39,888 bases of DNA from a virus. Below the pieces are notes generated by a model. The model saw nothing but the letters and a program-made list of their open reading frames with translations, did no database searches and was not told the DNA's origin. The position numbers and the translations under genes are program-made. Location of the stretch: positions 1 to 39,888 of IMG/VR virus record IMGVR_UViG_3300033144_003894. The stretch is one strand, 5' to 3'. Of the stretch, positions 6,358 through 39,471 are shown one piece after another (position 1 is the stretch's first letter; every line of letters begins with the position of its first letter).

Positions 6358-6372
6358 GTTCAAGGATTGAAC
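6358..6372. promoter_or_regulatory. Palindrome site 1 (GTTCAA-GGA-TTGAAC)
   Basis: A perfect 6+6 inverted repeat with a 3-base centre, just downstream of the capsid stop and 3 bases before ATG 6376. It shares the exact half-sites of four other copies in the window (18992, 27130, 33079, 39238). It could be a protein operator or, in mRNA, a small hairpin next to the start codon. Confidence 0.75.
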
Positions 6373-6375
6373 GAG

Positions 6376-6627
6376 ATGAACGTCGTTATGATAGACAGTC
6401 GGAGAGTTGGATCTTCTGTTTGGGCCGCTGTCAGAGGCTCACAGAAGGTCCACGTCTCCGGTATGTCAGAAGGGGATGAGATTGAGATCCTCACAGATCT
6501 CTCTAGTATTCCTATCCTTTTTGACAGTGACGGAGAGCTGCATCTAGAAGCTCTTGGAGATCCAACGAGAGTAAAAGTAGAACATACGAAGGCGAGTGGT
6601 TCACCGGTCTCAGTCGATCTGAGGTAG
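6376..6627 (+). CDS. Small beta-rich protein after the capsid gene
   Basis: An 83-residue protein if ATG 6376 is used; a TTG nine bases upstream, inside the palindrome, would add MNE. It looks beta-strand rich (VWAAVRGSQKVHVSGMSEGDEIEILTD), like a small collar or head-fibre domain, but I do not recognise the family. There is no good Shine-Dalgarno sequence; the palindrome occupies that place, so translation may be coupled or regulated. The next gene starts 2 nt after its stop. Confidence 0.65.
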   Translation: MNVVMIDSRRVGSSVWAAVRGSQKVHVSGMSEGDEIEILTDLSSIPILFDSDGELHLEALGDPTRVKVEHTKASGSPVSVDLR

Positions 6628-6629
6628 AT

Positions 6630-7271
6630 ATGGGTGCCAAGACACTGGAGGAGTTTAGGAGCAATCTTAACTTCGCTATGGGTGGTCGAGACTTCGAGGA
6701 TCCTCAGTTGGATAACTGGCTCCACGCAGGGCTAGATGATCTGGCGAGGGGTGTGATCTTGGAGGAGTTACATTCTACTGTGACTATCCCGACTGTGGTT
6801 GATAAGGAGGACTATACTCTTCCGTCCAACGTAGACGGGGTTCTTGGTATCGAGGATACTACCAGCCTGAAGTCTCTGATCAAGATAGGTCTACAAAAGT
6901 ATAGAAGGCTTAGCCGGGCTTCAAGGGGAGCGCCAAAGTACTGGATTCTCAGAGGTAGTAAGTTCCTCATTTGGCAGATCCCGAATAGGGTATTCAGTCT
7001 GGATGTGAGTACCTATATCCAACATCCGAGGCTGGTCAGTGATGGACAGAAGACCATACTTCAAGTCACGTGGGACAGGGCGATCCACCTCCTCTCCCTA
7101 TACCACGCTTTGACCGATGTTGATGAAGCGACTAGGGCCAAGGCTATCCACAGGGAAGCTCTGAAGTATATCGTAAGTAGAGTGTCCAGTGAGGAGCTCT
7201 CTGGTGATTCTCAGAGCCTGGGGATAGAGGTGGCTATGCGTGAGGAAGATGTCCATCGTCAGGAGACCTGA
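6630..7271 (+). CDS. Head-tail adaptor protein
   Basis: A 213-residue protein. The N-terminal helices (TLEEFRSNLNFAMGGRDF, LDNWLHAGLDDLARGV) are followed by a beta part with DYTLPSNVDGVLGIE and a C-terminal helical tail (HLLSLYHALTDVDEATRAKAIHREAL). This is the arrangement of P22 gp4/T7 gp11-type adaptors, which sit under the portal and dock the nozzle. Position (after the capsid, before the nozzle) agrees. The 3' end overlaps the next start by one base. Confidence 0.7.
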   Translation: MGAKTLEEFRSNLNFAMGGRDFEDPQLDNWLHAGLDDLARGVILEELHSTVTIPTVVDKEDYTLPSNVDGVLGIEDTTSLKSLIKIGLQKYRRLSRASRGAPKYWILRGSKFLIWQIPNRVFSLDVSTYIQHPRLVSDGQKTILQVTWDRAIHLLSLYHALTDVDEATRAKAIHREALKYIVSRVSSEELSGDSQSLGIEVAMREEDVHRQET

Positions 7272-7807
7272 TGCTAGAGCGGCTCAAACTTGGTGACAGA
7301 GTACAAATCACGAAGAGGATAGTGCCTCCCTCAAGGAGAGAGACTCAGATGGAAAGCACATTGAGAATGGGCGGACGTCTCACGATCGAGAAGCGTCGCC
7401 TATGGGAAGCAGAGCCCTTCGACACGTCTGAGATCGTTCTCAATACGGTCAACGCTGAAGGGAAAGAGGACATCATTCGGCAGATCGCACAGATCGCGAG
7501 TGGTGACTTCCCGATCGCGTTAGATGATGAGGCCCTCATCACGGTCGAAGATACAGGGGATAATCCTCTGGTCACGAGACAGCAAGTGGACAGTGCTCCT
7601 ACCTACGGTGGTGCGTACTTCGCAGTCTTCGTTTTCACCGTAGTTGCAGGTGTAGGAACTGGAGCCTGGGACGACATCCTGATCGAGGCGCATGATGGAG
7701 CAAGTGCGTACAAGGAGATCTCAGAATTCCTCGCCCAGAATTCCTCTTGGGGTACGAAAGCCTCCAATGAGGAGTGGGTTGTGACATACAGCCTCTACGT
7801 ACAGTAG
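7271..7807 (+). CDS. Neck/tail-completion hypothetical protein
   Basis: A 178-residue protein whose ATG uses the last A of the adaptor stop (TGATG). It has a basic N-terminus, a central segment (~45-95) with DTSEIVLNTVNAEGKEDIIRQIAQIASGDFPIALDDE, a hydrophobic AVFVFTVVAGVG strand and a C-terminal amphipathic part. I do not recognise the family. Its place between adaptor and nozzle genes suggests a connector or completion protein. Confidence 0.65.
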   Translation: MLERLKLGDRVQITKRIVPPSRRETQMESTLRMGGRLTIEKRRLWEAEPFDTSEIVLNTVNAEGKEDIIRQIAQIASGDFPIALDDEALITVEDTGDNPLVTRQQVDSAPTYGGAYFAVFVFTVVAGVGTGAWDDILIEAHDGASAYKEISEFLAQNSSWGTKASNEEWVVTYSLYVQ

Positions 7808-7811
7808 GCTA

Positions 7812-9977
7812 ATGGGAGATTTCCGGCAGGTCTTGAGGCAACTCTCTAGAGAAGCTAGAAGTGACCCTCAGGAAGAGCAAGAACTGGAGCCTGTAGAGTT
7901 CGAGCAGTTGGATGTCTCTGAAGGCTTTAGGGGAGATATGTCTCCAAAGACGATTCCTTTGGGGGCTACGCAGTCTCTCGATCATGTGCGATTTGAGGAG
8001 GGTGCGGTTAGGAAGGACTTTGGGATCGCACCTGTAGGTGAAGTCGCTGCGAGTAGGATTCTGGCTCTGGTCGATCATCTTATGTACCAGAATGAAACAT
8101 TGGTGCAGAGGTTGGTCAGGATTGTTAGGCACACTGACCAGAAAGCTAGGATCGAGTACTGGGATGGAGATAGTTGGGTCTTTGCAATAGACTCGTCTGT
8201 TACCATCGAGGATGTATTCCTGTCAGTTCTCTCTATTCAAGGTGATCTTCTCGTTGCAGACGGAACACAGATTCTCAGGTGGGACGAGTCTGTTCCTATC
8301 GTTGAACATGAGGATGAATTCCCTACTACAAATTCTCTGGCTGAGGTAGGTGATACCACACAGATCGTAGTAGACCCTGGAGCATCAGTCTCAGGTCTCT
8401 ATGTTGTCCACTTTAGTGTGGATCTCACACTGACCTCAGCCGATAGTTTGGAGATCGAGGTATCAGTCCTGCTGAATGAGGAGGAAGTAGCTGTTAGGAC
8501 ATTCTCCGCTGAGGCGACTGAGGACTGGCCCCATGAGGAGATTGAGTTGGATGAAGATATTCTCCTCGATGATACTATCGACCTGAAGCTCAAGTCCTTG
8601 ACTGCTGTCGGGACCTCTAGGATGGCTGTCTTTGGTCCTCTGTACGGGGAGGCTCCTTCATGGGCCGCAACTAAGCACTTCGCCCCAGAGCCTCCAGACG
8701 ACAAATATACCTGGATATTTGACCTTGCTACGAACTCAGGAGATGATGAGGAGGATGATGATAGCTCAGAATACTCCTGTGTGGTGGGGTTCTATGCTAA
8801 GCCAGCAGGTAGTTGGATCTTAGTAGACTCCATGTTCTATTCTGGGCTGCATGAAGGTAGGCGGGTTGCTTTAGCGGTAGACGGTATGGGTGCTGGTGAA
8901 GACTTCGGTATAGGAATTATATCATCTTCAGGGCCTGGAGGAGGGCCGATACTGACAGGTAAGCGAGTAGAGTGGGAAGAGGCTACTGTCACTGTAGATG
9001 TTCATGGCTTCAATAAGGCGACTGACAGCGATCCGACTGCTGGGCTAACATATCCTCAGGAGGGGTCGGTAACAGAGACATTCGCTCCGATCGCTGACGC
9101 ACCAGGAGCTTCGATCCTTGCGTCGTTTGGAGATAGAGCGATAGCTCTCCAGGATGGAGCTGATCCTCAGGTCTTTTGTGCATCTGCGGATGGAGATATC
9201 ACAGAGTGGGCAGCAGGGGATTCTGTAAGTACCACTCTCCTCGATACCAGAATCCATCCGATAGATGATCTCATGTCGTTTGTCCCTCTTGGGGCTAACG
9301 TCGCAGCGCTGATTCGCAAGCGCTCGATTATGAGATCCTACGAGACAGGGAATGTAGCTCTTGCGGTTGGAACAGTTCATTGGCTTGACGGTATAGGTAC
9401 CGATACCAAGTTCTCTGCTGAGCAAGTGGAGGGCGGTGCGATGTTCCTAGGCCATGACTATATGGTCTACTACATAACAGAGGGTGGTATCAAGTCAGTA
9501 GGGGCTGCTATTCAGAAGGAGCTGATCCGTACTCTTATCGGGAATCCTGACGGAGTAGATTCGGCCTACGATAGTGTATTCCAAGATTTCATCTTGGGTA
9601 TCCCAGAGTACGGGGCGAGTCATATCACAACTCTATGGTTCTTCGATCTTGGTAGGTTCCTTGTAACAGAGGAGAAGGTTTGGAGAAGGAGAAGCGTCGA
9701 CTGTCATAGGATCGAGGCAGTATCTGGTGTTCCGAAGAGCTCCACTCCTGATCCAGAGTATATAGAGGGAGATGTAGCAACAGAAGACACTATTGTAATG
9801 GTTGACACAGCTGTCATAGATGTCACCGTGATTGATGGCTTGCTTAAGTACTTCACGGTGAAGAGCTATCTGACAGTCTCAGACCTTCTAAAGATTGCGA
9901 GAGCTAAGAAGATAGCTGATACTGTATACCTCGAAGATGGGATCTTCATAGAAGTGAATCCTGAGGGTGAAGATTGA
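7812..9977 (+). CDS. Tail nozzle-like protein (T7 gp12/P22 gp10 type)
   Basis: A 721-residue protein. Residues ~30-80 carry the typical opening of nozzle proteins: FEQLDVSEGFRGDMSPK, then a conserved-looking VRFEEGAVRKDFG. Blade-like beta repeats follow (YWDGDSWVF, LSIQGDLLVADGTQILRWDE), then later ASFGDRAIALQDGADPQVF and FVPLGANVAALIRKRSIM, fitting a beta-propeller. Residues ~175-400 look like an inserted beta-sandwich domain rich in Glu/Asp, which T7 gp12 lacks. It would form the hexameric exit tube below the adaptor. The stop overlaps the next ATG (TGATG). Confidence 0.7.
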   Translation: MGDFRQVLRQLSREARSDPQEEQELEPVEFEQLDVSEGFRGDMSPKTIPLGATQSLDHVRFEEGAVRKDFGIAPVGEVAASRILALVDHLMYQNETLVQRLVRIVRHTDQKARIEYWDGDSWVFAIDSSVTIEDVFLSVLSIQGDLLVADGTQILRWDESVPIVEHEDEFPTTNSLAEVGDTTQIVVDPGASVSGLYVVHFSVDLTLTSADSLEIEVSVLLNEEEVAVRTFSAEATEDWPHEEIELDEDILLDDTIDLKLKSLTAVGTSRMAVFGPLYGEAPSWAATKHFAPEPPDDKYTWIFDLATNSGDDEEDDDSSEYSCVVGFYAKPAGSWILVDSMFYSGLHEGRRVALAVDGMGAGEDFGIGIISSSGPGGGPILTGKRVEWEEATVTVDVHGFNKATDSDPTAGLTYPQEGSVTETFAPIADAPGASILASFGDRAIALQDGADPQVFCASADGDITEWAAGDSVSTTLLDTRIHPIDDLMSFVPLGANVAALIRKRSIMRSYETGNVALAVGTVHWLDGIGTDTKFSAEQVEGGAMFLGHDYMVYYITEGGIKSVGAAIQKELIRTLIGNPDGVDSAYDSVFQDFILGIPEYGASHITTLWFFDLGRFLVTEEKVWRRRSVDCHRIEAVSGVPKSSTPDPEYIEGDVATEDTIVMVDTAVIDVTVIDGLLKYFTVKSYLTVSDLLKIARAKKIADTVYLEDGIFIEVNPEGED

Positions 9978-10443
9978 TGCCTACTACTATTGGGCCTCCA
10001 TTTCCGTATGTTCCTACTGTAGATCAGTTGCCTATGGAGAGGGCACTGATCTTTGCAGATACTAGCAACAGAGTACAAAGGATCAAGGAGTCAGTGAGGA
10101 CTATCGGGGGATACCCTTTCGATGCGTACTGGGAGAGTCCTACACTTAATCGAGAGGATCCAGGTAGAGAGTACACGATCAGAAAACTCATGTTGTTCTA
10201 TTCTGCTGAGGAAGATAGTTCTTTCATAGTCCAAGCGTCAGGTAATGGAGGAAAGACTTGGAATCAGTGGAAGAGGGTGGGTGTTCTGAGATGTGTAGGT
10301 GAGATCAAGAGGGTTCTAGTAGGCCTGAACACGACAGGGGGTGATCTGCGCTTTCAGTTGCTCTTTGATCGGAATGGGATCATTAACGTCTTTGGGTATC
10401 TTCCTACTCTTATAAGGAGAGGCAGAAATGTCCTGGAGACTTA

Positions 10444-10444
<1 letters not shown>
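9977..10444 (+). CDS. Small nozzle-companion tail protein
   Basis: A 155-residue protein starting at ATG 9977 in a TGATG overlap. The upstream TTG at 9974 is less likely. The central sequence [20 protein letters not shown] followed by [13 protein letters not shown] and a strand-rich end matches the small beta-sandwich proteins usually encoded after the nozzle gene in podoviruses. The exact role is unknown; attachment of fibres to the tail is possible. The following collagen-like gene begins in its stop codon (TAATG). Confidence 0.65.
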
Positions 10445-14975
<4,531 letters not shown>

Positions 14976-14979
<4 letters not shown>

Positions 14980-15505: not shown

Positions 15506-15766
15506 ATGTTAACAAGAGAGATGTTCCTGAAGATGGTCGCGGCGCTTGTCGCTGCGCCGTTCGTGCCGTTCGTGCTGAAGACCGAAGATCCGATGTTTGA
15601 CTCCTGCTACGCAGAACCGGGGCCGGGGCCGTATGGAGTTACCGGGGCGACTGGCGCGACAGGGGCGACTGGTCCGGTCTGTACTGGTGCGAGGGGAGCG
15701 ATGGGACCAGGACCGTGTCCGAGAGGCCACCGTGGCGCTTATAGTCCTACTGGAGTCCAAGGCTAA
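15506..15766 (+). CDS. Mini-collagen with hydrophobic N-terminus
   Basis: An 86-residue protein. Residues ~7-25 (FLKMVAALVAAPFVPFVL) are hydrophobic and could be a membrane anchor or signal peptide. After a short linker there is a small collagen-like part: GPYG, three GAT triplets, GPV, and Gly/Pro/Arg-rich triplets with two Cys. It shares the GAT idiom with the giant fibre two genes upstream. TAGGAGC precedes the ATG, and the stop overlaps the next start (TAATG). The function is unknown. Confidence 0.6.
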   Translation: MLTREMFLKMVAALVAAPFVPFVLKTEDPMFDSCYAEPGPGPYGVTGATGATGATGPVCTGARGAMGPGPCPRGHRGAYSPTGVQG

Positions 15767-17475
15767 TGTCTGTGATCACTCTACATTTGCCAGGACTGCC
15801 GCACACAGTCACCACCGAAGAGTATTCGCACTGCGCGTTTACGGCGAAGGTCCTGAAGTTCGCTGCTATGATGCAACCGCTTTCTGGCTATCGTGTGGTT
15901 CACTATGGCGTAGGGGGCGCTGAAACCGACGCAGACGAACAAGTCACCATAATGTCTAGAAAGGAGCAGAATAAGCTCCGTGGGCATGATGGATCAGATC
16001 CGACTAAGTTCGTTGGTGATGATACTGGTATTGATACACCGCTCTTCAGGAAGTTCAATAAGCGCCTTCGTAAGCAGCTCAAGAAGCGTGCCGACCCAGC
16101 TCAGGACATCATACTACTTCCGTTCGGTTGGGGTCATGCGCAAGCCGTTGACAGACTGGATCTGGTAACTGTGGAAAGCGGCATCGGCTATCCTGACACG
16201 ATCCCAAGTGTGCCTCACAAGATCTTCGAGAGCTACGCCTGGCTCCACTACCATCAGGGACGAGACAAGCGCCAGGGCAAGGCGTACGAGTGGGTCGTGC
16301 CCAACTACTTCGATGTTGACGCCTGGGACCGTTGTTCAGATCCTGACATGAACACAGTCGTTTTTCTTGGTCGTATAGGAGAGACTAAGGGGCTACGTAC
16401 TATCGTCGAGATTGCACGCTACCGTCAGGATCTTCGCTTCGTGATCTGTGGCCAGGGAGATCCAGCGCCGTGGCTAACTCAACCAAATATCGAATACTTA
16501 CCTCCTCTCGTCGGAGATGATCGTAACGCCTACCTAGCCAATGCTCGATGTGTTCTCATGCCAACCACTTTTACAGAGCCATTCGGCGGGGTGGCAGTAG
16601 AGGCGATGCTTTGTGGGACGCCTGTACTATCGAGTCCCTATGGCGCTTTCACAGAAACCATCGAAGACGAAGTCACAGGTTTCCGCTGTCATACGTTTGG
16701 TGATTATTTAGCAGCTATCGATCAAGTACCTGACCTAAATCGTAACTATATCCGTAGTCGGGCCAGACAGCTTTACGGGTATGGGACAGTGGGTAAGATG
16801 TATGATCGCGTCTTTCAGCAGATCCACGATCTGCGAGGCGAGGGTTGGTACACCCCACGGTCTACGTTCGGACCCGTGCGAATCGAGAAGGCCGACGGCT
16901 GGGAGGCCGCTCAGGAGGGAGAGCGGGAGTTCCACATGACGCCCGCCTACCGGGCACCAGAGCGTCACAAGCGGGAGCGCTACCGCTCTCTTATTGGGAT
17001 CACGGAGGCGATGCCGCCTGGTCTGTCTGTGATCGACGTTGGCGGTGGGCCTGAGTCTCTGTTGCTCGACTATCCTGACATCAATGGTACAGTGCTTGAT
17101 CCGCTCACCTTCGGCGAGGACGACGAGCTTCGCTATGCCAAGGCGGGGATCAAGCGCCTGATCACTCCAGTGGAGGAGTGGAACGCGCTAGAGTGTATAT
17201 CAGAGTTATACGATGAGGTATGGGTCTATAACTGTCTCCAGCACGTCAGGGATCTCGACGAAGCGTTCCGTCAGATTTGCCTCATGGGCAAGCGAGTTCG
17301 GCTCTTCGAGTGGTGTGAGATCCCAACTGACAAGATGCATCTTCATACGCTCACAGCTGATGGTATCAGGAAAGCGATGAGTGGCTACACGATTGAAAAT
17401 GAGGTCGAAGGAGAATGGACAATCGGGGATTACCTTTCTGGGAAGTTCTATGCAGCTGTTTTTGTAAGATCTTGA
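15766..17475 (+). CDS. Two-domain GT4 glycosyltransferase / SAM methyltransferase
   Basis: A 569-residue protein. Residues ~1-355 are a GT-B family 4 glycosyltransferase: VVFLGRIGETKGL (~198-210), a VICGQGDP turn, and EPFGGVAVEA with the donor-binding E-x7-E pair (E271, E279), then CGTPVLSS. Residues ~385-569 form a Rossmann methyltransferase: VIDVGGGPE (422-430) is the SAM-binding loop, and VWVYNCLQHVRDLDEAF is the usual post-motif. There is no signal peptide, so it acts in the cytoplasm. Known relatives add and modify sugars; the likely target here, the Thr-rich collagen fibre, is inference from neighbourhood. Arg codons are mostly CGN (about 38 to 7), unlike neighbours that favour AGG/AGA, hinting at later acquisition. 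Confidence 0.8.
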   Translation: MSVITLHLPGLPHTVTTEEYSHCAFTAKVLKFAAMMQPLSGYRVVHYGVGGAETDADEQVTIMSRKEQNKLRGHDGSDPTKFVGDDTGIDTPLFRKFNKRLRKQLKKRADPAQDIILLPFGWGHAQAVDRLDLVTVESGIGYPDTIPSVPHKIFESYAWLHYHQGRDKRQGKAYEWVVPNYFDVDAWDRCSDPDMNTVVFLGRIGETKGLRTIVEIARYRQDLRFVICGQGDPAPWLTQPNIEYLPPLVGDDRNAYLANARCVLMPTTFTEPFGGVAVEAMLCGTPVLSSPYGAFTETIEDEVTGFRCHTFGDYLAAIDQVPDLNRNYIRSRARQLYGYGTVGKMYDRVFQQIHDLRGEGWYTPRSTFGPVRIEKADGWEAAQEGEREFHMTPAYRAPERHKRERYRSLIGITEAMPPGLSVIDVGGGPESLLLDYPDINGTVLDPLTFGEDDELRYAKAGIKRLITPVEEWNALECISELYDEVWVYNCLQHVRDLDEAFRQICLMGKRVRLFEWCEIPTDKMHLHTLTADGIRKAMSGYTIENEVEGEWTIGDYLSGKFYAAVFVRS

Positions 17476-18986: not shown

Positions 18987-18991
18987 CAGGT

Positions 18992-19006
18992 GTTCAACCA
19001 TTGAAC
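18992..19006. promoter_or_regulatory. Palindrome site 2 (GTTCAA-CCA-TTGAAC)
   Basis: A perfect inverted repeat whose right half contains the TTG used as start codon of the next gene (19001). AGGTG directly precedes it and may be part of both the ribosome site and the extended site (AGGTGTTCAA...TTGAACAACT, shared with site 3). A protein or hairpin here would block translation initiation. Confidence 0.75.
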
Positions 19007-19621
19007 AACTACGGATTAGTAAACTGGGATGATGAGGTAAAGAGAGGCCAGCCGATAGAGATTCTCCAGGTGGAGAACACGGATCGGTCTGGTACTCATA
19101 CCTATTCTATCCGAGTTCTACACGAGTTCGGTAAGGGCTCTGGTTATCTGAACCCCCAGAAGATCCAGGAGATCTGGAAGCACGCTAAGGAATTCGAGGT
19201 GCTCTTCTCTGACCACACAAGGGGCAGGTTTGAGGTATTCATGGATGTACTCTTGAATCCAGCCTCTGTGTGGCTCGAGATCTTCAGGCTATCCGATGAA
19301 CAGTCAATAGGTCTTATCGTACTTACTCACGTACTACCTCACTTCGACGCTCACGGGCACTTCACTTTTTGGGACTCCATTGCAGGAGGTAGGCAGGGTC
19401 TAGTTCTTCAGGTGGCAAAGATCCTGTTCAAGGTGTATGATCTGAGGAGGATGTCTGCTCAGGTTCCTAAGTATCAGCCTGGGGTGATTCGCTTCGTGAA
19501 GAAGTTAGGATTCAAGGAAGAAGGAGAAAAGAGGGAAGCAGTCCTATACAAAGGGGAATGGGTCCCTGCTATCCTTCTTGGTCTATTAGAGAGTGAGCTA
19601 AGGGAGGCTCTACATGGGTGA
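19001..19621 (+). CDS. GNAT acetyltransferase-like protein, T7 gp13-like position
   Basis: A 206-residue protein. No ATG is available early enough, so TTG 19001, inside the palindrome, is the best start (AGG at spacing 8). Residues ~95-190 look like a GNAT fold: strands around SVWLEIFRLSDEQSIGLIVLTHV, a helix GGRQGLVLQVAKILF, and the ending YQPGVIRFVKKLGFKEEGEKREAVLYKGEW, which is the classic GNAT C-terminal pattern. GNAT-like proteins occur at the T7 gp13 position before the internal-virion genes, as here. Whether it is catalytic is unclear. Confidence 0.65.
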   Translation: MNNYGLVNWDDEVKRGQPIEILQVENTDRSGTHTYSIRVLHEFGKGSGYLNPQKIQEIWKHAKEFEVLFSDHTRGRFEVFMDVLLNPASVWLEIFRLSDEQSIGLIVLTHVLPHFDAHGHFTFWDSIAGGRQGLVLQVAKILFKVYDLRRMSAQVPKYQPGVIRFVKKLGFKEEGEKREAVLYKGEWVPAILLGLLESELREALHG

Positions 19622-25796: not shown

Positions 25797-27013
25797 GTAG
25801 GTACGTAGATACTCTGTCCTTCTTTGTCCTTGACTCTCTTGATCTTTCCCATCGACTGCAGCATCTGAATGATCTTCCCAAGCTGGTCTACATCCCCTAC
25901 GGCATAGTTGCGCCGGTAGATCTCTTTCGGAGACATCCCTCCTTGGTCTATGATCTGAGCCAGAATCCGTTCGAGGTCTGAGGCTAGATCATACTTCCCT
26001 ACAGCGGAGAAGGCGGAGGTCATCTTAGGTTCAATAGCCATTAGTAGCTGCCATGCGGTCTCTATATCACGAGGCATGATGACGAGTTCATCGTTCTCCG
26101 CAATGGATAGAAGCATAGCCACCTTGAGTAAGTGAGTACGCTTTCTCCAGTGGAAGCCTTCGGTTCGGTAGTCAGAGGGTAGCGATGTATAGATATCATG
26201 ATATAGTTTTGCGTAGACTTCCTTCGTACCTTCTCCCCACTGGAAAGGGCCTGTAACACGCGATAGATGGTCGAGATCATTGACAAGAGCTCTTATCAGT
26301 TTCTTGTCAGGTCTACCAGGAAACGGATTCTCCTTTCGCGGCTCCTCTTCAAAGATGAAGATAGTACGTGAGGTGAAGCCGTGACCTACTACCTCTGTGG
26401 GGAATCCAGTTGCGATCCAACTAGCTGTAGTACCTGCGAGGAGATTGAGGACAGGGTGATGAACCTTGTCCTTACCTGAGTGCTTGGTAGCGTGATCAAA
26501 CTTTAGGTCACCATCATAGATCTCCGTGAGGAATTGGATCATCTTCACACCGGAAGGATCAATGAGTGATGATAGCTCAGTCGAGTGGAGGGTGACCGCA
26601 GACTGTCTCCTGTCCTTGCCAGCCTTAGCCATGTGGTGAATGAGCTCTTCGCGTGTGACAGAGTCAGGGCCAAAGGTTATCCCTTCTACGCCGTAGAGTA
26701 TTGTGCGCCCTAAGCGGATCGAAGTGCTCTTCGCTACTTTACCAGGGGGTCCCACGAGGATTACGAATAGATTAGGGTATAGGATATATACCCCTTGATC
26801 CAACCAGAGGTTGCGCCTGGTCGCAGAAGCGATAATAGACAAACCAGTCCATAGATGGAACGACTCAGGGCTTTCACTCTCGTCTGTATATTCCTGATAA
26901 GCCTTGAGCCAATTACCTAGAACTCGTTCAGTCTTCTTCTGCGGCTGCTTTTTCCCATCCTTTTCGGATGAGTCCTCTGATGAGGCTTGCGAACGTAATT
27001 TGATTTCTGGCAC
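25793..27013 (-). CDS. DUF3987-like ATPase, possible replicative helicase
   Basis: A 406-residue protein. Residues ~32-65 (NWLKAYQEYTDESESPESFHLW) and YPNLFVILVGPPGKVAKST (P-loop at 88-97) match phage DUF3987/helicase-like ATPases, which are thought to replace DnaB or primase-helicase in replication modules. The P-loop has an extra residue and AKST in place of GKST. The C-terminus (~335-406) is a winged-helix-like part (ILAQIIDQGGMSPKEIYRRN...LGKIIQMLQSMGKI). The predicted start, GTG 27013, lies inside the upstream ribbon-helix-helix gene without a clear ribosome site; the true start could be later. Confidence 0.65.
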   Translation of the reverse strand: MPEIKLRSQASSEDSSEKDGKKQPQKKTERVLGNWLKAYQEYTDESESPESFHLWTGLSIIASATRRNLWLDQGVYILYPNLFVILVGPPGKVAKSTSIRLGRTILYGVEGITFGPDSVTREELIHHMAKAGKDRRQSAVTLHSTELSSLIDPSGVKMIQFLTEIYDGDLKFDHATKHSGKDKVHHPVLNLLAGTTASWIATGFPTEVVGHGFTSRTIFIFEEEPRKENPFPGRPDKKLIRALVNDLDHLSRVTGPFQWGEGTKEVYAKLYHDIYTSLPSDYRTEGFHWRKRTHLLKVAMLLSIAENDELVIMPRDIETAWQLLMAIEPKMTSAFSAVGKYDLASDLERILAQIIDQGGMSPKEIYRRNYAVGDVDQLGKIIQMLQSMGKIKRVKDKEGQSIYVPT

Positions 27014-27125
27014 AGGCTTCTACCAATTCGGTCTCGAGGTCCTCAGGGAGGCGAATAGTTCGGGCCACCATAGGAGGAGTCTTCACGTTCTCCTCTTTGA
27101 GGGCGGCTAAGAATGCCTTGTTCAT
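26928..27125 (-). CDS. Ribbon-helix-helix regulator
   Basis: A 65-residue protein. ARTIRLPEDLETELVEACAR is the strand plus first helix and FASLIRGLIRKGWEKA the second helix of a CopG/Arc/MetJ-type ribbon-helix-helix dimer, which reads DNA with its paired N-terminal strand. The palindrome at 27130-27144 ends 5 bases before its ATG, making autoregulation likely. It overlaps the ATPase gene by 86 bases. Target sites could be the five palindromes of the window; this is inference. Confidence 0.75.
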   Translation of the reverse strand: MNKAFLAALKEENVKTPPMVARTIRLPEDLETELVEACARNQITFASLIRGLIRKGWEKAAAEED

Positions 27126-27129
27126 AGGT

Positions 27130-27144
27130 GTTCAATCCTTGAAC
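27130..27144. promoter_or_regulatory. Palindrome site 3 (GTTCAA-TCC-TTGAAC)
   Basis: A perfect inverted repeat placed exactly between two minus-strand genes: it contains the stop of the 62-residue gene and lies 5 bases upstream of the ribbon-helix-helix gene. Its flanks (AGGTG on one side, AACT on the other) match site 2. It is a candidate autoregulatory operator. Confidence 0.75.
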
Positions 27145-27320
27145 AACTGGGTGAATTCTTCAAGACTCAGACGTCTCATATCTATCTTATACCCCCCTTC
27201 AGGTTGTATTACTACCCTTGTGATAGCTCCTCCTACTCTGGTGACCACAACATAGATCGGTATTGTGGTACTCATCATAGGCTCTACAATGTCGCACTTG
27301 AACCCCTCTACTCGTTTCAT
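27132..27320 (-). CDS. Small hypothetical protein
   Basis: A 62-residue protein coupled to the polymerase gene by an ATGA overlap. It appears beta-rich in the middle (TIPIYVVVTRVGGAITRVVIQPEGG) with a short C-terminal helix (SLEEFTQLFKD). Its last three codons and stop lie inside palindrome 3. No family is recognised. Confidence 0.55.
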   Translation of the reverse strand: MKRVEGFKCDIVEPMMSTTIPIYVVVTRVGGAITRVVIQPEGGYKIDMRRLSLEEFTQLFKD

Positions 27321-29871: not shown

Positions 29872-30430
29872 CGTATCCTCCCCATTCACGTTCGAAGGCA
29901 GCAAGGAAAAAGTCCTTGGCTGCCCGCTGGCTCAGGTTAGTAAAGGGTACAGACGTATCAGGCTTCTCATAGGACCAGCTCTCGGGATCAAGGGTAGGAT
30001 CTACCCCAAAGAGTCTGGATGCCTCAGTGGACAGCAACACATTATCAGCGTGCTTGATTCTCTTCCATTCTTCAGGAGCAAGAAACACCCTGAACTTCTC
30101 GTAGATGATACTCTGGATCAGAGCTTCTAGATTACTTAGCCATGCACTCATATAAGTCTTGATTAGCTCTTTCATGGGCCTAGAGATATCCCCAGTGTAT
30201 GCCTCGTGAGCATCGTGAAGTAGGCCCGCAAGTCGAAGCTCTGGAGGCAGCATCAGTGATACTAGGACAGAGTGCTGCGCGACTGAGTATGACCGTGGAA
30301 GATGCCCACCAAAGCGTTGTATGTTGCTCAGAGCGTGGGCAATGTCCTCGATGTCTACATCAGAGGTCTTCGGAAGGTTCAGGTGGAACTTCTTCCCTGT
30401 GTGTGTCCAGATCCACGGACCCTTTGGCAT
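29864..30430 (-). CDS. HD-domain phosphohydrolase, YfbR-like 5'-nucleotidase
   Basis: A 188-residue protein. SYSVAQHSVLVSLML, AGLLHDAHEAYTGDISRPMK and KHADNVLLSTEA supply the H...HD...D metal-binding set of HD-domain enzymes, and the order and spacing match YfbR-type 5'-deoxyribonucleotidases, which dephosphorylate dNMPs. In phages this adjusts nucleotide pools for replication, and the polymerase gene lies close downstream. The start is ATG 30430, within the 3' end of the methyltransferase gene (71-base overlap). Confidence 0.75.
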   Translation of the reverse strand: MPKGPWIWTHTGKKFHLNLPKTSDVDIEDIAHALSNIQRFGGHLPRSYSVAQHSVLVSLMLPPELRLAGLLHDAHEAYTGDISRPMKELIKTYMSAWLSNLEALIQSIIYEKFRVFLAPEEWKRIKHADNVLLSTEASRLFGVDPTLDPESWSYEKPDTSVPFTNLSQRAAKDFFLAAFEREWGGYDV

Positions 30431-31265
30431 GGATATGCTCCTGTAGTCTCATGTTCCCATAACGGCAGAACTCCTCATCGAGTTCAAACCCGAGGTATTC
30501 GCACTGTTGTTCGAGAGCACCGAGCCCTGTGGCTCCACTCCCAGCGAAGGGATCGAAGATTCTACCTCCACCGAGACAGATCATCGAGGTGAGGTGCTTG
30601 CAGAACTCGGTCGGCATCTGGACGGCGTGTACTCGATCCGCGCCAAGATCAACCTCAAAGGGGAAGTGATTCTGCAGGCCCTTCTTCATGAGGACAGGCT
30701 GTCCCTTGGCCATGAAGATGAACGCCTCGTAGGAGGAAATCAGACCCTTGTTCGGGTCACCTATGAGGCCTTGAGTCTTGTTCGGCTTGGTCCATATAGC
30801 GGGTACCTTACTCACCCAGTTGAAGCCAGCCTGCTCAGCCCAGAATGCGAGACCCATTGCCTTCTCTGAGTCACGTCTGGACATATTATAGAGCTCCTTA
30901 GACATGGCCTCTAGTTGAACGAGCTTCGCGGCCATCGCCTCCATTCGACTGTGAACCCTAGTCATGGGTGTGGAGTAGGTGATCTTCCTTATATCGAAGA
31001 AGGCCACCATCCACGAGTCAGGCTTGAGAACACGGTAGCAGTGAGGGAGGATCTCCATGATCAGCTCGACGATGTAGTCCTCCTCATCGTAGTATGGCTG
31101 CTCTCCTCCCTTATAGGTGAGGTCCACTCCGAATGGGAAGTTGGTGATGATCGCATCGAAGCTCTCGTCGTCGAGATCCTTGATCAGTTCTCGTGCATCT
31201 CCCTGGACGATACGAGCAGGGAAGGAAGGGCCTTCGCCAGCCGCTTTCCGCTCCATAGCCTTCAC
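30360..31265 (-). CDS. DNA N4/N6 methyltransferase (beta type)
   Basis: A 301-residue protein. The motif order is IV (TNFPFG, ~40-45) first, then a C-terminal SAM site FDPFAGSGATGLGALEQ (~250-266), as in beta-type amino-methyltransferases. Motif IV reads N-F-P-F instead of the usual N/D-P-P-Y/F; the first Pro is replaced. It would methylate adenine or cytosine amino groups of phage DNA, probably to avoid host restriction. No cognate endonuclease is encoded nearby. The start is GTG 31265, overlapping the ParB-like gene stop (GTGA). Confidence 0.75.
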   Translation of the reverse strand: MKAMERKAAGEGPSFPARIVQGDARELIKDLDDESFDAIITNFPFGVDLTYKGGEQPYYDEEDYIVELIMEILPHCYRVLKPDSWMVAFFDIRKITYSTPMTRVHSRMEAMAAKLVQLEAMSKELYNMSRRDSEKAMGLAFWAEQAGFNWVSKVPAIWTKPNKTQGLIGDPNKGLISSYEAFIFMAKGQPVLMKKGLQNHFPFEVDLGADRVHAVQMPTEFCKHLTSMICLGGGRIFDPFAGSGATGLGALEQQCEYLGFELDEEFCRYGNMRLQEHIHAKGSVDLDTHREEVPPEPSEDL

Positions 31266-31678
31266 CCGTGGGAGACGGTGCCAACGCTCTTACCTACAAC
31301 CTCAGCAGTCTTACGCATATTCCACTCAGGATCACGCTCCATGTGCATAGCGTGGATCTCAGCGACTGCGGCGGCCTCCTCGAACCATTCGAGATTCTTC
31401 CTCTCGATGTTCTCCTCAAGCTCAACTTCCTTCGCGAGGATGTCGTCGACCTTGGTATGGAGTTCGTAGCGGATCTCCTCCCAACCAAGGGAGAGCGCGG
31501 CTTGGATTCTGATGAACCCAGCCACGAGAACCAACTTCCCACCCTTCTTCCGAAGGCGAATGGGCTGGAGTTGGCCAAAGCGTTTGAACGAGTTAGCCCT
31601 CCTGGTTATGTCTTCCGCTGTCAGTTGCTTCCGCTGCCTCGGCTCGATCTCAATATCGAGGATTTTGATATTAGGCAT
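31262..31678 (-). CDS. ParB/Srx-like protein
   Basis: A 138-residue protein. Residues 1-100 match the ParB N-terminal fold: IEPRQRKQLTAEDITRRANS, then GQLQPIRLRKKGGKLVLVAGFIRIQAALSLGW and ELEENIERKNLEWFEEAA. The usual GERR/GHRR nucleotide-binding block is GFIR here, so NTPase activity may be altered. The predicted HTH begins (NMRKTAEVVGKSVGTVS) but the protein ends inside it. ParB-like proteins often sit next to phage methyltransferases, as here. A role in DNA-substrate choice or modification is inferred; classical partition is unlikely without ParA. Confidence 0.7.
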   Translation of the reverse strand: MPNIKILDIEIEPRQRKQLTAEDITRRANSFKRFGQLQPIRLRKKGGKLVLVAGFIRIQAALSLGWEEIRYELHTKVDDILAKEVELEENIERKNLEWFEEAAAVAEIHAMHMERDPEWNMRKTAEVVGKSVGTVSHG

Positions 31679-32653: not shown

Positions 32654-33049
32654 TTATGCGTCAGCGGCCAGCAACTTCTTGATGCTGGACCGCATCTCGC
32701 CAGAGTCCTTCGGGTACTCCTCCGTCTTGGTGACGATGGCGACAGCTGCGCCGATCAGATCTTCCGGATCGACCTCAAGCTCCTCCATGTCATCCACGTC
32801 GTAGTCCGAGCCCGTGACCTTGTTGACGAAGTCCACGAAGATGCCTGCACCCTGTCCCTCGATGGGCATATTGTGGTAGAACTTCCGCCCCTCGAAATCT
32901 CCGTCGGAGATCACGATGATAGCGGTAGCGTACTTGGCCTTGTCTCCCTGATGAGGCCCGTTGAGCTCTGCCACCTCAGCCGGATAGGTGTCATCCGGTA
33001 TCGGCTTGAGACTCTGGGCATCAGAGAGGTCGAGACTGAAAATCGGCAT
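32654..33049 (-). CDS. DUF669-like ssDNA-binding/recombination accessory protein
   Basis: A 131-residue acidic protein. FSLDLSDAQSLKPIPDDTYPAEV, then VISDGDFEGRKFYHNMPIEG, and an acidic middle match the DUF669 family, found beside Sak4/Erf-type recombination genes and thought to bind ssDNA with an OB-like fold. The neighbours upstream (Sak4-like ATPase, RecB-like nuclease) agree. GGAGAAG precedes the ATG. Palindrome site 4 lies about 30 bases upstream of the start. Confidence 0.7.
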   Translation of the reverse strand: MPIFSLDLSDAQSLKPIPDDTYPAEVAELNGPHQGDKAKYATAIIVISDGDFEGRKFYHNMPIEGQGAGIFVDFVNKVTGSDYDVDDMEELEVDPEDLIGAAVAIVTKTEEYPKDSGEMRSSIKKLLAADA

Positions 33050-33078
33050 TGCCCTTCTCCTCTGTGATTTGAATAGAT

Positions 33079-33093
33079 GTTCAACGATTGAAC
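33079..33093. promoter_or_regulatory. Palindrome site 4 (GTTCAA-CGA-TTGAAC)
   Basis: A perfect inverted repeat in the 75-base gap between the 96-residue gene and the DUF669-like gene, 30 bases upstream of the latter's ATG. On the minus strand it carries the CCCAGGTG flank on its 5' side, like the AGGTG flank of sites 2 and 3. Confidence 0.75.
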
Positions 33094-33124
33094 ACCTGGG
33101 TCACTCGGCCAACGAGATCCTTCG

Positions 33125-35507: not shown

Positions 35508-35726
35508 CTAAGTCTGGGTTTGAGCCTTTGCGATTTTTACTGCAGTGTCTGCTGTCGCCTTTCTTGCGTAGTCTGAGGGCGTAGGCATCCTCCCCTCCGC
35601 AATCATGATATTGAGACTCTTGAAGCAGCCCTCGACAAACCTCTGCTTGAACCCTCGACCGAACTGGTCGTTGACCCAGTCATTGAGGTCAGCGTCTATA
35701 CGGGCTTGGACTAGTACCCTTCTCAT
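35508..35726 (-). CDS. Ribbon-helix-helix-like protein
   Basis: A 72-residue protein. RRVLVQARIDADLNDWV followed by a helix (KQRFVEGCFKSLNIMIAEG) has the strand-helix-helix order of small DNA-binding RHH proteins, with a Lys/Ala-rich C-terminal tail. The start overlaps the previous stop (ATGA). It lies directly downstream of the promoter-proximal gene and may regulate this operon. Confidence 0.6.
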   Translation of the reverse strand: MRRVLVQARIDADLNDWVNDQFGRGFKQRFVEGCFKSLNIMIAEGRMPTPSDYARKATADTAVKIAKAQTQT

Positions 35727-36127: not shown

Positions 36128-36156
36128 AGTTGCTCCCGATTCGTGGTCTGAGGGTC

Positions 36157-36185: not shown

Positions 36186-36195
36186 GGGTCTTGAA

Positions 36196-36618: not shown

Positions 36619-36818
36619 CAGCGCTGATCCCACTTCTCACGAGCTATCGTCAAAAGTCTCTCGGTCTCCTCCTCATCTAGTTCGCACTCCCTCTCACATT
36701 CGTATCTGAAATTCTCTTCTGGGGGTATGCCAGAGCCATCAGGAAGATAACGTATCCCCTCGTCGTAGTCGTAGTATACGGTCATGTCTCCTCCGCATAC
36801 TGGGCACATAGTAGGCAC
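36618..36818 (-). CDS. Small zinc-ribbon-like protein
   Basis: GTG 36818 is the most likely start, with GGGAGGGAG upstream; ATG 36809 is an alternative, and the far TTG 36836 is unlikely. CPVCGG near the N-terminus and CERECEL near residue 50 give paired cysteines with an acidic middle (YYDYDEG). It is possibly a zinc-binding adaptor; the role is unknown. The stop overlaps the next ATG. Confidence 0.6.
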   Translation of the reverse strand: MPTMCPVCGGDMTVYYDYDEGIRYLPDGSGIPPEENFRYECERECELDEEETERLLTIAREKWDQR

Positions 36819-36819
36819 C

Positions 36820-37023
36820 TTAGTCTCCCTCCCCAAAGCCTGCCAGGAAGTCGCGAGAAGCCTTGGTCAGCTTCCCCTTCTTCGTAGTAGTGAGTACGAT
36901 GACACCCTGCTCCCCCTTCCTCGTCCTGCTCGTCCAGATTGTGAGACACTGGAAGCCAGAGAAGGCAGACTTCACCATCGAGTTGATAAGTACGTAGCCT
37001 TTGAACGGCTTTAGTCTAGTCAC
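36820..37023 (-). CDS. Small basic hypothetical protein
   Basis: A 67-residue protein starting at GTG 37023, which overlaps the previous gene end. It is Lys/Arg/Thr-rich and beta-strand rich (GYVLINSMVKSAFSGF, GEQGVIVLTTTKKGK). No family is recognised. Its stop lies just before the next gene's GTG. Confidence 0.5.
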   Translation of the reverse strand: MTRLKPFKGYVLINSMVKSAFSGFQCLTIWTSRTRKGEQGVIVLTTTKKGKLTKASRDFLAGFGEGD

Positions 37024-37231
37024 CTTTAGTCTCCTTCATCTTTTTTGTGTCAAGGACCTCGCCATCCACCTCGAAGATCACTGCTGGCTCGAAGCCCTCA
37101 TTGCCCATGCGAATGCACTTCAATTCACCAGGGAAAGAGTCGTAGGCGCGGACGAAGGCTCTTACAAGGTTGTCGATGCTATCTTGTTGCTCTGCTGTGA
37201 GTATCATCTCACTCGCCATACTTCGCTTCAT
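37016..37231 (-). CDS. Small hypothetical protein
   Basis: Up to 71 residues from ATG 37231; in-frame ATGs at 37219 and 37207 are alternative starts. A helical front (TAEQQDSIDNLVRAFVRAYDSF) is followed by a strand-rich end (CIRMGNEGFEPAVIFEVDGEV). No family is recognised. Confidence 0.5.
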   Translation of the reverse strand: MKRSMASEMILTAEQQDSIDNLVRAFVRAYDSFPGELKCIRMGNEGFEPAVIFEVDGEVLDTKKMKETKGD

Positions 37232-37367
37232 CCAGAAGTTGATCAGCCTTCGCTGCCATCATATCTACCTGAGCATCGTGCGCCATCTGGCTAAGCTCCT
37301 CGTCCGACTTCTCAGGGTGCTCAGCCTCAAGGCGTTCGAACTCTCGGAACCACTCTTCCTTGCTCAC
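37209..37367 (-). CDS. Tiny acidic protein, 52 residues
   Basis: It starts at GTG 37367 overlapping the upstream stop (GTGA). The product is VSKEEWFREFERLEAEHPEK and then an acidic helix ending AKYGE; the Glu/Asp-rich helical composition contrasts with the basic protein just upstream in another frame. The frame is open further upstream but has no ATG. Confidence 0.5.
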   Translation of the reverse strand: MSKEEWFREFERLEAEHPEKSDEELSQMAHDAQVDMMAAKADQLLDEAKYGE

Positions 37368-37531
37368 CGGTTCGCCCTTCGACTCGCTCGAGTCGGGTGA
37401 GACTTCTTCTTTCTCCTCGTGTGCTTCTTCTTCGACAGTCCGTGGCCGATCTTACGCTTGCGGCCGTAGTGTCCGTCAGCGGAGATCGACGCAGCTAGTA
37501 CGCCTAAGAATGCCAGGTTGACTGGTTTCAT
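37364..37531 (-). CDS. Tiny basic protein with signal-like N-terminus, 55 residues
   Basis: MKPVNLAFLGVLAASISADG is followed by a very basic tail (GRKRKIGHG, KKKHTRRKKK). GGGAG lies before ATG 37531, which overlaps the previous stop (ATGA). The N-terminal 18 residues are hydrophobic and could be a signal or membrane anchor, or simply a short hydrophobic helix on a nucleic-acid-binding peptide. Confidence 0.5.
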   Translation of the reverse strand: MKPVNLAFLGVLAASISADGHYGRKRKIGHGLSKKKHTRRKKKSHPTRASRRANR

Positions 37532-37851
37532 TCTTCGCTCCCATCTCCCGGTAATCCTTCGACGTATTGACGTTCTACCACAGACGGTAGCTCCATCTTC
37601 CTCCCAATCCGCACGAGGTATCTGTCCAGCGCCTGTAGAGTATGCTCCTCCATAGCGATGGCATTAGGTCCAGCACAGCTCTCATCCTCAAGCCAGAGTA
37701 TGATCTGATACCCGTCGAAGCCGACGTAGACTCCATCGCCGAGGTGATCCTTGTGTTCGAGGTGCTCCATATCTGCTCGCATCTTCTCTCCTATCTCATG
37801 AATAAAGGTGATGAGGTTCAGTGCGTCTTGGGCCATCTGTTCTCCAGTCAT
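37528..37851 (-). CDS. Small hypothetical protein, 107 residues
   Basis: The start is ATG 37851 (MTGEQMAQDALNL), which overlaps the stop of the upstream small gene (ATGA); a longer TTG-started form from 37902 would overlap that gene and is unlikely. It has a helical N-terminus, a central strand-rich part (GDGVYVGFDGYQIILWLED) and a helical end. No family is recognised. Confidence 0.6.
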   Translation of the reverse strand: MTGEQMAQDALNLITFIHEIGEKMRADMEHLEHKDHLGDGVYVGFDGYQIILWLEDESCAGPNAIAMEEHTLQALDRYLVRIGRKMELPSVVERQYVEGLPGDGSEE

Positions 37852-38027
37852 GGTGCTAACTGGAATACGTAGAGCGCGATGAGGTACACCACAGTGATCC
37901 AACAGAATCCCTGGACGAGTACCCCTATGAGTATATACTGGTTTCGCTCCTTAGAATTCCGAGCGATGCTTTCCAGATGCTCCATAGCGATCTGTAGCTG
38001 CTCGTGTTGCCACTCAGTCAGTTCCAT
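37848..38027 (-). CDS. Tiny membrane protein, 59 residues
   Basis: It begins MELTEWQHEQLQIAMEHLES, then a basic linker and a hydrophobic helix (~33-55, LIGVLVQGFCWITVVYLIALY). GGAGGGGG precedes ATG 38027. It has one membrane segment and an amphipathic N-terminal helix. The function is unknown. It is chained by overlap to the next gene. Confidence 0.6.
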   Translation of the reverse strand: MELTEWQHEQLQIAMEHLESIARNSKERNQYILIGVLVQGFCWITVVYLIALYVFQLAP

Positions 38028-38028
38028 C

Positions 38029-38208
38029 TTAGCCCCCTCCGGGCCTCAGGTATTTCCTCGCCCAAGGTCTGAGAGCAATTACATCTCCGAGGAGCTTGTG
38101 GTAGTTGTCGATGTCTCCCTGTCTGAGAAGGACAGTTACCAGACACATCTCATCGACCTTGAGATCCTCAATCTCCTCCAGCAACTTCTCCACTGTCTTG
38201 CGTGCCAT
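38029..38208 (-). CDS. Tiny hypothetical protein, 59 residues
   Basis: MARKTVEKLLEEIEDLKVDE is followed by MCLVTVLLRQGDIDNYH and ends RPWARKYLRPGGG. GGAGGAG is well placed before ATG 38208. It is mostly helical, with no motif. Its first 41 bases overlap the end of the upstream gene. Confidence 0.55.
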   Translation of the reverse strand: MARKTVEKLLEEIEDLKVDEMCLVTVLLRQGDIDNYHKLLGDVIALRPWARKYLRPGGG

Positions 38209-38617
38209 TTGTAGTCTCCTCCGCTTTCCAGTACTTCACGTTGGGCAGGGACTCACGACTGATGAACCAGGTGGTCCCTGGATGACAAGAGCAACGGATA
38301 GTACCATCACTCTTGAAGAGTACATCCTCATGCTCGAGAACTAGCTGGGCGATGGCGAAGTGGCCTCGCTTCACTACTAGCTCTACCTCTATCACCTTAC
38401 CTTTGTCTGTTACCCCTTGGGATAGTACCTCCGTTGAAGTGAAGCGATGAATGCGAGTGTACCATCCGCAGAGAGTGCGGAGTAGTCCACCGCTCAGACG
38501 CTTCTCGTTTTCGAGAGCTCGGTTGAATGCAGCGCGAGGCACAGTGTAGAGTATCTTCTCGAACCCTCCACCTAGCTCGCGGGTTACATCAGCTGGCTCG
38601 AAGTAATCAATCCTCAT
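38168..38617 (-). CDS. Hypothetical protein, 149 residues
   Basis: The start is ATG 38617. Helical N-terminal part (GFEKILYTVPRAAFNRALENE), then a middle with strands (GKVIEVELVVKRGHFAIAQLVLE) and a CSCHPGT segment; its role is unknown. It overlaps both neighbours by short stretches, as usual in this arm. Confidence 0.55.
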   Translation of the reverse strand: MRIDYFEPADVTRELGGGFEKILYTVPRAAFNRALENEKRLSGGLLRTLCGWYTRIHRFTSTEVLSQGVTDKGKVIEVELVVKRGHFAIAQLVLEHEDVLFKSDGTIRCSCHPGTTWFISRESLPNVKYWKAEETTNGTQDSGEVAGGD

Positions 38618-38825
38618 TGAGCGGCTTCACCATAAGCGATCGCGCCCAGACTCTGATGTCTACCATCTCAGGGACCAAGAGGATCTCTCGAACCTCTTGG
38701 AGAACCAGTCGAGGCGCCTTCCTAAAGGTTCTAGACATATCCTCACTACCTACCCAGACACCCCGCGCTGCAGAGTTCTGGGCCATCTCAGCCATTCCAT
38801 CCATAGCTTCTTGTGAGACTGCCAT
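38607..38825 (-). CDS. Hypothetical protein, 72 residues
   Basis: Starts MAVSQEAMDGMAEMAQNSAA at ATG 38825, in a TGATG overlap with the tiny membrane gene upstream. It is helical at the N-terminus and strand-rich at the C-terminus (EILLVPEMVDIRVWARSLMV). No family is recognised. Confidence 0.55.
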   Translation of the reverse strand: MAVSQEAMDGMAEMAQNSAARGVWVGSEDMSRTFRKAPRLVLQEVREILLVPEMVDIRVWARSLMVKPLNED

Positions 38826-38914
38826 CAGATTGGTGCTCCTATTAGATGAAGGAACGTGTACAGTAAGGTCATAAGGAGAATGAACCAGAATAGCTCCTTA
38901 GTAGGCCTACTCAT
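38825..38914 (-). CDS. Tiny membrane protein, 29 residues
   Basis: MSRPTKELFWFILLMTLLYT then FLHLIGAPI: one hydrophobic helix with a basic N-terminus. It overlaps the upstream stop by 8 bases, and its own stop overlaps the next ATG. The perfect chaining and membrane profile make it a likely real micro-gene. Confidence 0.5.
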   Translation of the reverse strand: MSRPTKELFWFILLMTLLYTFLHLIGAPI

Positions 38915-39203
38915 CAGGCTTACCGTTATAGTGGGTATATACCACTACACGGGAAGCCTCTTGTGTGTTCTGAACTGTCTCCTTGACATTCAAGCCAATG
39001 AGGGTCAGGAATAGAAGTTGTATACGCTCCCTTCGCTTCTCTGAGGAGAAGGCTGGCGTCTTGTAGGGGAACAGATAGCGGGCAGGTAGATCGTATAACT
39101 CGTCGTTGATGACGACGTGAGTGACCCTTGTTGGGTCTAATTTATGCTCTATGGCTGGATGAACTCTAGGCCGACTGGCCCTACGCCCTTGTGCGTGGCT
39201 CAT
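38907..39203 (-). CDS. Hypothetical protein, 98 residues
   Basis: It has a basic N-terminus (SHAQGRRASRPRVHPA), a middle with VTHVVINDELYDLPARYLFPYK, and a helical part (EKRRERIQLLFLTLIGLN). No family is recognised. It starts 2 bases after the upstream stop. Confidence 0.55.
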   Translation of the reverse strand: MSHAQGRRASRPRVHPAIEHKLDPTRVTHVVINDELYDLPARYLFPYKTPAFSSEKRRERIQLLFLTLIGLNVKETVQNTQEASRVVVYTHYNGKPDE

Positions 39204-39204
39204 C

Positions 39205-39471
39205 TCAGTTCTCCAGGATCTTGCGGAGATCCAAGTCGTTCAATCCTTGAACACCTTCGTTGCGTCGAATCTTCAGGTTGAGGTAGACTTCCGCGTGTAT
39301 ACGATCCAACGCCTCAGCGGAATCTGTAGACGCTATAAGTATCGCCATCTTGATCGCCGCGCAGATATCCTCACTGTCATCAATGAGGAGTATGAGAGAC
39401 TTCCACTCCTCCTGTAACCTCAAGGCCTGAATATGATAGTCCTCTAGGAACCTCTCCTCATTCACGCACAT
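39205..39471 (-). CDS. Hypothetical helical protein, 88 residues
   Basis: Starts MCVNEERFLEDYHIQALRLQ; it is helical and acidic. The fifth palindrome copy lies inside its 3' end and encodes GVQGLN there, so the site may act on the next gene's expression or be read as DNA. No family is recognised. Confidence 0.55.
   Translation of the reverse strand: MCVNEERFLEDYHIQALRLQEEWKSLILLIDDSEDICAAIKMAILIASTDSAEALDRIHAEVYLNLKIRRNEGVQGLNDLDLRKILEN
39238..39252. promoter_or_regulatory. Palindrome site 5 (GTTCAA-TCC-TTGAAC), inside a gene
   Basis: The same perfect 15-base site as at 27130, here within the coding sequence near the end of the 88-residue gene, about 35 bases upstream of the ATG of the 98-residue gene (39203). 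That distance is comparable to site 4. Confidence 0.7.

Follow-up and report, generated by a model that had tools for sequence, protein, structure and literature searches.

Short repeated elements scattered through phage and plasmid genomes have been described in several systems. Among non-temperate phages, the Cluster O mycobacteriophages (Corndog, Firecracker) possess 17-bp dyad repeats, TGTTCGG-N3-CCGAACA, reported in 2015 with neither binder nor function given (PMC4351075). The stoperators of Cluster A mycobacteriophages, 20-30 dispersed sites for a repressor, have motifs particular to each lineage, which follow changes in the repressor (PMC6550527). The SPBRE of SPbeta is a repeated element found in several intergenic regions and bound by the phage master repressor MrpR (PMC10516654). 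Cluster K Start-Associated Sequences are start-codon repeats, some with inverted repeats differing between subclusters (PMC3203893). KorB is a cytidine triphosphate (CTP)-dependent sliding clamp silencing promoters at a distance (PMC11790492). Here we analyse a 15-bp palindrome, GTTCAA-N3-TTGAAC, dispersed through the virus record IMGVR_UViG_3300033144_003894 of IMG/VR. The whole analysed stretch of this record, 39,888 bases, is hereafter called the window.

Elements of this kind are already known from the Cluster O repeats, the stoperators and the O_B/parS sites. What is new is that the core is rewritten lineage-wide while its positions stay fixed, that the sites are linked to the helix-turn-helix (HTH) motif of a ParB-methylase protein, and that a prediction was upheld in a distant phage. 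The Cluster O repeats share the 7-3-7 geometry and a half beginning with TGTTC, are likewise dispersed and largely not linked to promoters, and occur in phages without an integrase; Firecracker also encodes a ParB-like HTH protein (gp94). However, they have GG where the present sites have AA, so that the Cluster O sequence is not matched by the window core. They are also more numerous (34 copies in Firecracker against five in the window), about a third of them lie within genes, gp94 has no methylase fused to it, and the phages belong to another lineage. KorB/O_B of plasmid RK2 and ParB/parS share with our case a protein made of ParB_N and an HTH, and dispersed short palindromes. The present system differs by its methylase fusion, phage setting, lineage-variable core and partly degenerate CTP motif. 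Stoperators are also dispersed sites with lineage-specific motifs, but their 13-14 bp are asymmetric and follow the direction of transcription, and the phages that have them are temperate, whereas the sites described here are palindromic and unoriented, with no integrase found. SPBRE is a repeated intergenic element as well, but MrpR, a repressor with a recombinase fold, acts at prophage promoters. Start-Associated Sequences adjoin start codons, as many of the present sites do; they are asymmetric 13-bp elements tied to translation starts, whereas ours are palindromic and not restricted to starts.

Sites of the window and of its relatives

The five exact copies, at positions 6358, 18992, 27130, 33079 and 39238 (Table 1), had been listed in an earlier reading of the letters (the sequence-only reading) as far above chance expectation, and this is confirmed. 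There is no further match with one mismatch in the window, and allowing two mismatches adds a single match (21428), against 1.0 expected. Six matches under the latter criterion were reached in none of 100 dinucleotide shuffles. When every gapped palindrome with halves of 4-7 bases and gaps of 0-11 is searched for without bias, the GTTCAA family ranks first in the window, with a corrected p of about 1e-12. These two results rule out a chance repeat. The 6-bp arms are complete in all five copies and the 7-bp arms in three. The partial conservation of the flanks, also noted before, is real and symmetric on both sides of the palindrome, and for this reason the full site is taken as about 23 bp, AGNYGTTCA-N5-TGAACRNCT.

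Table 1. Positions of the palindromic sites and of the candidate reader genes in the window (RHH, ribbon-helix-helix; SSB, single-stranded DNA-binding protein; ORF, open reading frame)
Feature	Position	Strand	Core	Context or basis
Site 1	6354..6376	.	6358-6372 GTTCAAGGATTGAAC	Junction of capsid-like gene and gene starting at 6376; 19 nt past stop of capsid-like gene 5400-6338, 3 nt ahead of ATG 6376
Site 2	18988..19010	.	18992-19006 GTTCAACCATTGAAC	Start of GNAT-like gene 19001-19621; 5 nt past stop 18986, overlaps TTG start at 19001
Site 3	27126..27148	.	27130-27144 GTTCAATCCTTGAAC	Upstream of RHH65/primase genes; 4 nt upstream of ATG 27125 (minus strand), overlaps 3' end of ORF 27132-27320
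Site 4	33075..33097	.	33079-33093 GTTCAACGATTGAAC	29 nt upstream of SSB-like gene 32654-33049
Site 5	39234..39256	.	39238-39252 GTTCAATCCTTGAAC	Inside 3' part of ORF 39205-39471, close to its 3' end
65-residue Arc-like RHH protein (RHH65)	26928..27125	-		PHROG Arc-like repressor, 5e-4
N6/N4-type DNA methylase domain	30360..31265	-		PHROG DNA methyltransferase; fused homologues in relatives
ParB-like protein	31262..31678	-		ParB_N domain and HTH start; Pfam ParB_N 1.3e-7, alignment with relatives
72-residue RHH-like protein (RHH72)	35508..35726	-		Rival candidate binder; presence profile and AlphaFold2

No close annotated phage was found for the window. Environmental relatives were obtained by alignment scans with the polymerase, exonuclease, capsid, primase and Sak4, and their core proteins are 45-67% identical; a portal scan, a scan with the RHH72 alignment and a capsid scan of cellular genomes gave no lead. 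The relatives are metagenomic records (designated by G numbers), several of them incomplete, and their terminase region is missing from the window. The relaxed pattern GTTCA-N5-TGAAC is present in 1-10 copies in G001, G003, G004, G006 and G007 (0-1 for the reversed control), and in 1-7 copies in eleven more records. The core reads GTTCAA in the window, G003 and G050, and GTTCAW in G001, G004, G006 and about ten fragments. G002, the closest relative in polymerase, primase and capsid trees, exhibits no GTTCA-N5-TGAAC copy. It carries instead GTTTCAC-N-GTGAAAC (two exact copies, six more with one or two mismatches), one site being upstream of its RHH65 gene, equivalent to site 3 of the window. 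The G002 sequence GTTTCAC-S-GTGAAAC (6807, 35576) is similar to the half-sites of bacterial parS, with an additional base in the centre. Unbiased searches revealed GTMCAAT in G043, GTGCAA in G048 and TTCAAT in G035, each of them in the same register. The palindromes thus form one site family, its geometry and position kept and its core rewritten genome-wide in each lineage. The motif search in related phages proposed by the sequence-only reading thus finds dispersed palindromes of the 15-bp geometry, with cores differing by lineage. A scan with the full 23-bp pattern also retrieved the distant contigs G049-G051 and G053, with 3-5 copies of the GTTCAA site each.

Two records deserve separate mention. 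G053 is a 16-kb contig with three GTTCAA-N3-TTGAAC sites, in which homologues of window genes are not detectable. G013 contains ten dispersed, even-centred GAAC-N8-GTTC palindromes (p = 4e-5), possibly a separate site system; the HTH of its ParB-methylase protein is degenerate.

With genes called by a simple script, 76 of 96 sites in 18 records have their midpoint outside genes (9.4 expected). Of the 96, 65 are flanked by genes of the same orientation, usually with 2-9 nt to the preceding stop codon and 3-15 nt to the following start. Fifteen site-bearing records show the junction that follows the capsid gene; in 13 of them a site occupies it, even though the proteins on either side share only about 50-67% identity. 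A site upstream of the primase occurs in the window, G002 and G004, the junction of site 3 being occupied by the diverged GTTTAACCGTGAAAC in G002 and by GTTCATTCGTTGAAC in G004. A site upstream of the SSB gene is found in the window and G043, and with one mismatch in G003. Relatives lacking the motif at equivalent positions, or having it at random within genes, would have spoken against a phage-wide site; the junctions turn out to be shared, and the sites mostly lie between genes. The sites are spaced more evenly than random gene junctions (combined p = 6e-6 for ten records, 1e-5 for six lineages). Sigma70-like promoters are not enriched near them, and promoter-type regulation is to this extent not supported. 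The centre of the GTTCAW-lineage sites (ACGAA) is asymmetric, yet it runs with transcription in 13 cases and against it in 13, and a directional core was discarded on this count.

In G004 (21113, 6259), G036 (10545), G040 (5623) and others, sites stop exactly 4 nt before an ATG (TGAACaactATG), with no intervening Shine-Dalgarno sequence. Other copies stop 11 nt before the ATG and are directly followed by AAGGTGG.

The sequence-only reading had offered, as an alternative to a protein-binding site, a short mRNA stem-loop masking or presenting ribosome binding sites. Many copies do adjoin start codons, and in two window copies the loop AAGGA lies at ribosome-binding distance. The substitutions argue otherwise. 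Among 50 distinct sites of the GTTCAW lineage, the pair adjoining the fixed stem is complementary nine times against 23 expected, A-A or T-T occupying this place in 32 sites, and the outer pairs across the dyad match at or below chance. The sites show no preferred orientation, and they are also present in long non-coding and divergent regions. We therefore regard an mRNA hairpin as very improbable. Because the paired columns do not covary, the palindrome is best read as a DNA site for a symmetric protein.

Candidate reader proteins

ParB-family proteins comprise partition proteins and regulators such as KorB. The window ORF 31262-31678 scores 31.9 bits against Pfam ParB_N (cut-off 26.3). The domain is also above the cut-off in G002, G050 and Firecracker gp94, and below it in G004 (23.6 bits) and G043 (13.2 bits). 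In the relatives the ParB part and the methylase are fused, encoded by a single unbroken gene with a product of about 440-480 aa. Its HTH, following the motif ENxxR, has a compact, canonical form in all site-bearing phages in which the gene can be seen. In seven polymerase relatives without sites, all of which have the protein, this region is degenerate or longer. Counting Firecracker, Desulfofustis phage, Microcystis phage and ctMlz233, sites are present in 10 of 11 phages with the canonical HTH and in none of the nine others (Fisher p = 1e-4, uncorrected for relatedness).

The residues of the helix vary with the half-site: S-[VL]-G with GTTCAA, A-L-G with GTTCAW, S-K-A with GTTTCAC, S-R-Q with GTMCAAT and S-R-R with GTGCAA. 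Writing the helix as S-x2-x3, Gly or Ala at x3 goes with T at base 3, Gln with A/C (G043) and Arg with G (G048); x2 is Lys in both phages having C at base 5 (G002 and Desulfofustis phage). Gln-A and Arg-G pairings are those expected from HTH chemistry.

Annotated phages provided an out-of-sample check. Desulfofustis phage MD01 encodes, at 10342-11634 of OP947158, a ParB-methylase fusion with a canonical HTH (GSSKSSIS), from which sites were predicted. It exhibits GTCCCA-N3-TGGGAC six times (p about 1e-19), or nine times with two mismatches allowed. Microcystis phage Mel-JY34 and ctMlz233, which retain ParB_N with a degenerate HTH lacking the helix, yielded no palindrome of such geometry. Among polymerase relatives, Kuura, MD02, vir526 and Tiera have neither a protein of ParB-methylase type nor such a palindrome; ctLwi270 has only a weak protein of this type and no such palindrome. 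In Firecracker, gp94 has its HTH in the same place. On these correlations, the ParB-like protein probably binds the palindromes. We also note that at 249, 15474, 29970 and 41281 of the Desulfofustis phage the palindrome extends outward to about 25 bp, GCTAT-GTCCCAA-N-TTGGGAC-ATAGC.

Several observations weigh against a ParB-type reader. Chief among them, the window has perfect sites beside a broken reader: its ParB frame breaks off within the predicted recognition helix (GKSVGTVSHG, then a stop; region 31200-31330), and its methylase is a separate ORF in another frame. A faulty assembly or a loss of recent date could explain this interruption; alternatively, another protein may read the sites. 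G007 has the canonical HTH but only two copies of GTTCAC-N3-GTGAAC, which are not significant. The HTH classes were defined after the first operators had been seen, so that only the later phages are true tests, and the counts in the comparison are not independent because the phages are related. Both CTP-binding motifs, GxRR and ENxxR, are present in G050, Desulfofustis phage, G007 and G043; in the window clade ENxxR is kept while GxRR is degenerate (GFTR/GFIR/GFCR). Finally, coding constraint alone may give the intergenic placement.

The sequence-only reading had put forward two RHH proteins as binders. Homologues of RHH65 are found only in G002, G003 and G043, so that four of the seven site-bearing phages have it, while G004, G006 and G048, with 7-10 sites, lack it. 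On this distribution it was rejected as the binder, and RHH65 is probably just a neighbour of site 3. RHH72 fits the close clade far better, being present in 7 of 7 site-bearing close relatives and in 0 of 8 site-less ones, the sole non-structural family with that profile. Its N-terminal strand residues vary with the operator lineage, and one G002 site lies 80 nt upstream of the RHH72 operon. It was at first our leading candidate for a phage-wide repressor acting through these sites, and was dropped once G050 and the Desulfofustis phage had been examined. No RHH72 homologue was found in these two or in Firecracker, all of which carry such sites; in G050 the ParB-methylase protein is present. 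The RHH assignment itself is a pattern confirmed by no sequence library: RHH72 has no significant Pfam or PHROG match, and hhalign to Arc is uninformative. The AlphaFold2 model (helices 12-22, 26-43 and 52-71; predicted local distance difference test score 79) gives no significant Foldseek hit, the match to DinJ/RelB being weak (E = 2-5). RHH72 is thus an unlikely binder. The protein-binding, phage-wide site of the sequence-only reading stands; its RHH binder gives way to a ParB-type HTH protein, better supported by the HTH correlation and the Desulfofustis phage.

Another HTH protein, at the start of the late arm, is read as the small terminase subunit from its position, the large terminase coming next.

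Possible roles of the sites

The explanation we favour, with some confidence, is that the palindromes are parS/O_B-like sites for a phage ParB-type HTH protein acting genome-wide. Each HTH of a ParB-like dimer would read one half-site, GTTCAA or its lineage variant. As the sites recur every few kb through both arms, mostly between genes, the protein could load over the whole genome. Once loaded it would act genome-wide by spreading on, organising or methylating the phage DNA. It might also block or tune read-through where it is seated, without being a classical promoter repressor. Whether loading for spreading or methylation is the main purpose is less clear; we consider it a reasonable possibility, short of an even chance. 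The even spread, the absence of any link to promoters or to orientation and the fused methylase all favour it. More tentatively, the ParB-methylase could form a clamp that loads at parS-like sites, spreads and carries the methylase over the phage genome, which would explain the Cluster O repeats as well. With such a clamp, diverging lineages would change their HTH and, throughout the genome, the site sequence together.

The same binder could also use the sites as operators in the manner of KorB or of stoperators, silencing or attenuating transcription between genes and so tuning dosage in long operons. The short distances to the preceding stop and the following start, the share of sites between co-oriented genes, the recurrence of the capsid (where the site is nearly constant), primase and SSB junctions would suit a role in transcription, and KorB, a ParB-family sliding clamp, represses promoters from distal O_B sites (PMC11790492). 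The sites, however, are not associated with promoters, are not oriented with transcription as Cluster A stoperators are (PMC6550527), are evenly spaced, and also occur inside genes and in long non-coding gaps. KorB-like gene control is possible but not favoured as the main purpose, and the loading role comes out slightly ahead. Recombination junctions serving the swapping of phage modules would account for the position at gene boundaries, and occasional deletions between repeats are reported for Cluster O (PMC4351075). We hold this to be highly unlikely: the site behind the capsid gene, which is the best conserved of all, has no inserted cargo, the cores change together across the genome, and no integrase- or resolvase-family recombinase was found. 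Ordinary temperate control of the integrase/CI type likewise appears unlikely. No tyrosine or serine integrase was found, the window and several records being incomplete, and HTH_3 matches are weak, below cut-off and limited to G004 and G006.

The candidate reader to which the comparison points is a single protein class, the ParB-like HTH proteins, often fused to a methylase; a provisional pattern relates its residues to bases. Such a reader, if real, would also account for the unexplained mycobacteriophage repeats. ParB biology would then reach beyond partition and plasmid gene control to action over whole genomes in lytic-looking phages, with a regulon-like array of sites rewritten jointly with its reader. 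The question is now directly open to DNA binding assays and methylome mapping.

Other features

The early arm of G003 has a stretch of TATATA repeats (4051-4090), a possible origin or promoter region. At 157-1143 the window encodes a 328-residue protein made of repeats of about 22 residues, with no family match. Positions 10444-14979 encode a 1511-residue collagen-like protein (Gly-x-y repeat), probably a fibre, which is followed by a glycosyltransferase gene (15766-17475).

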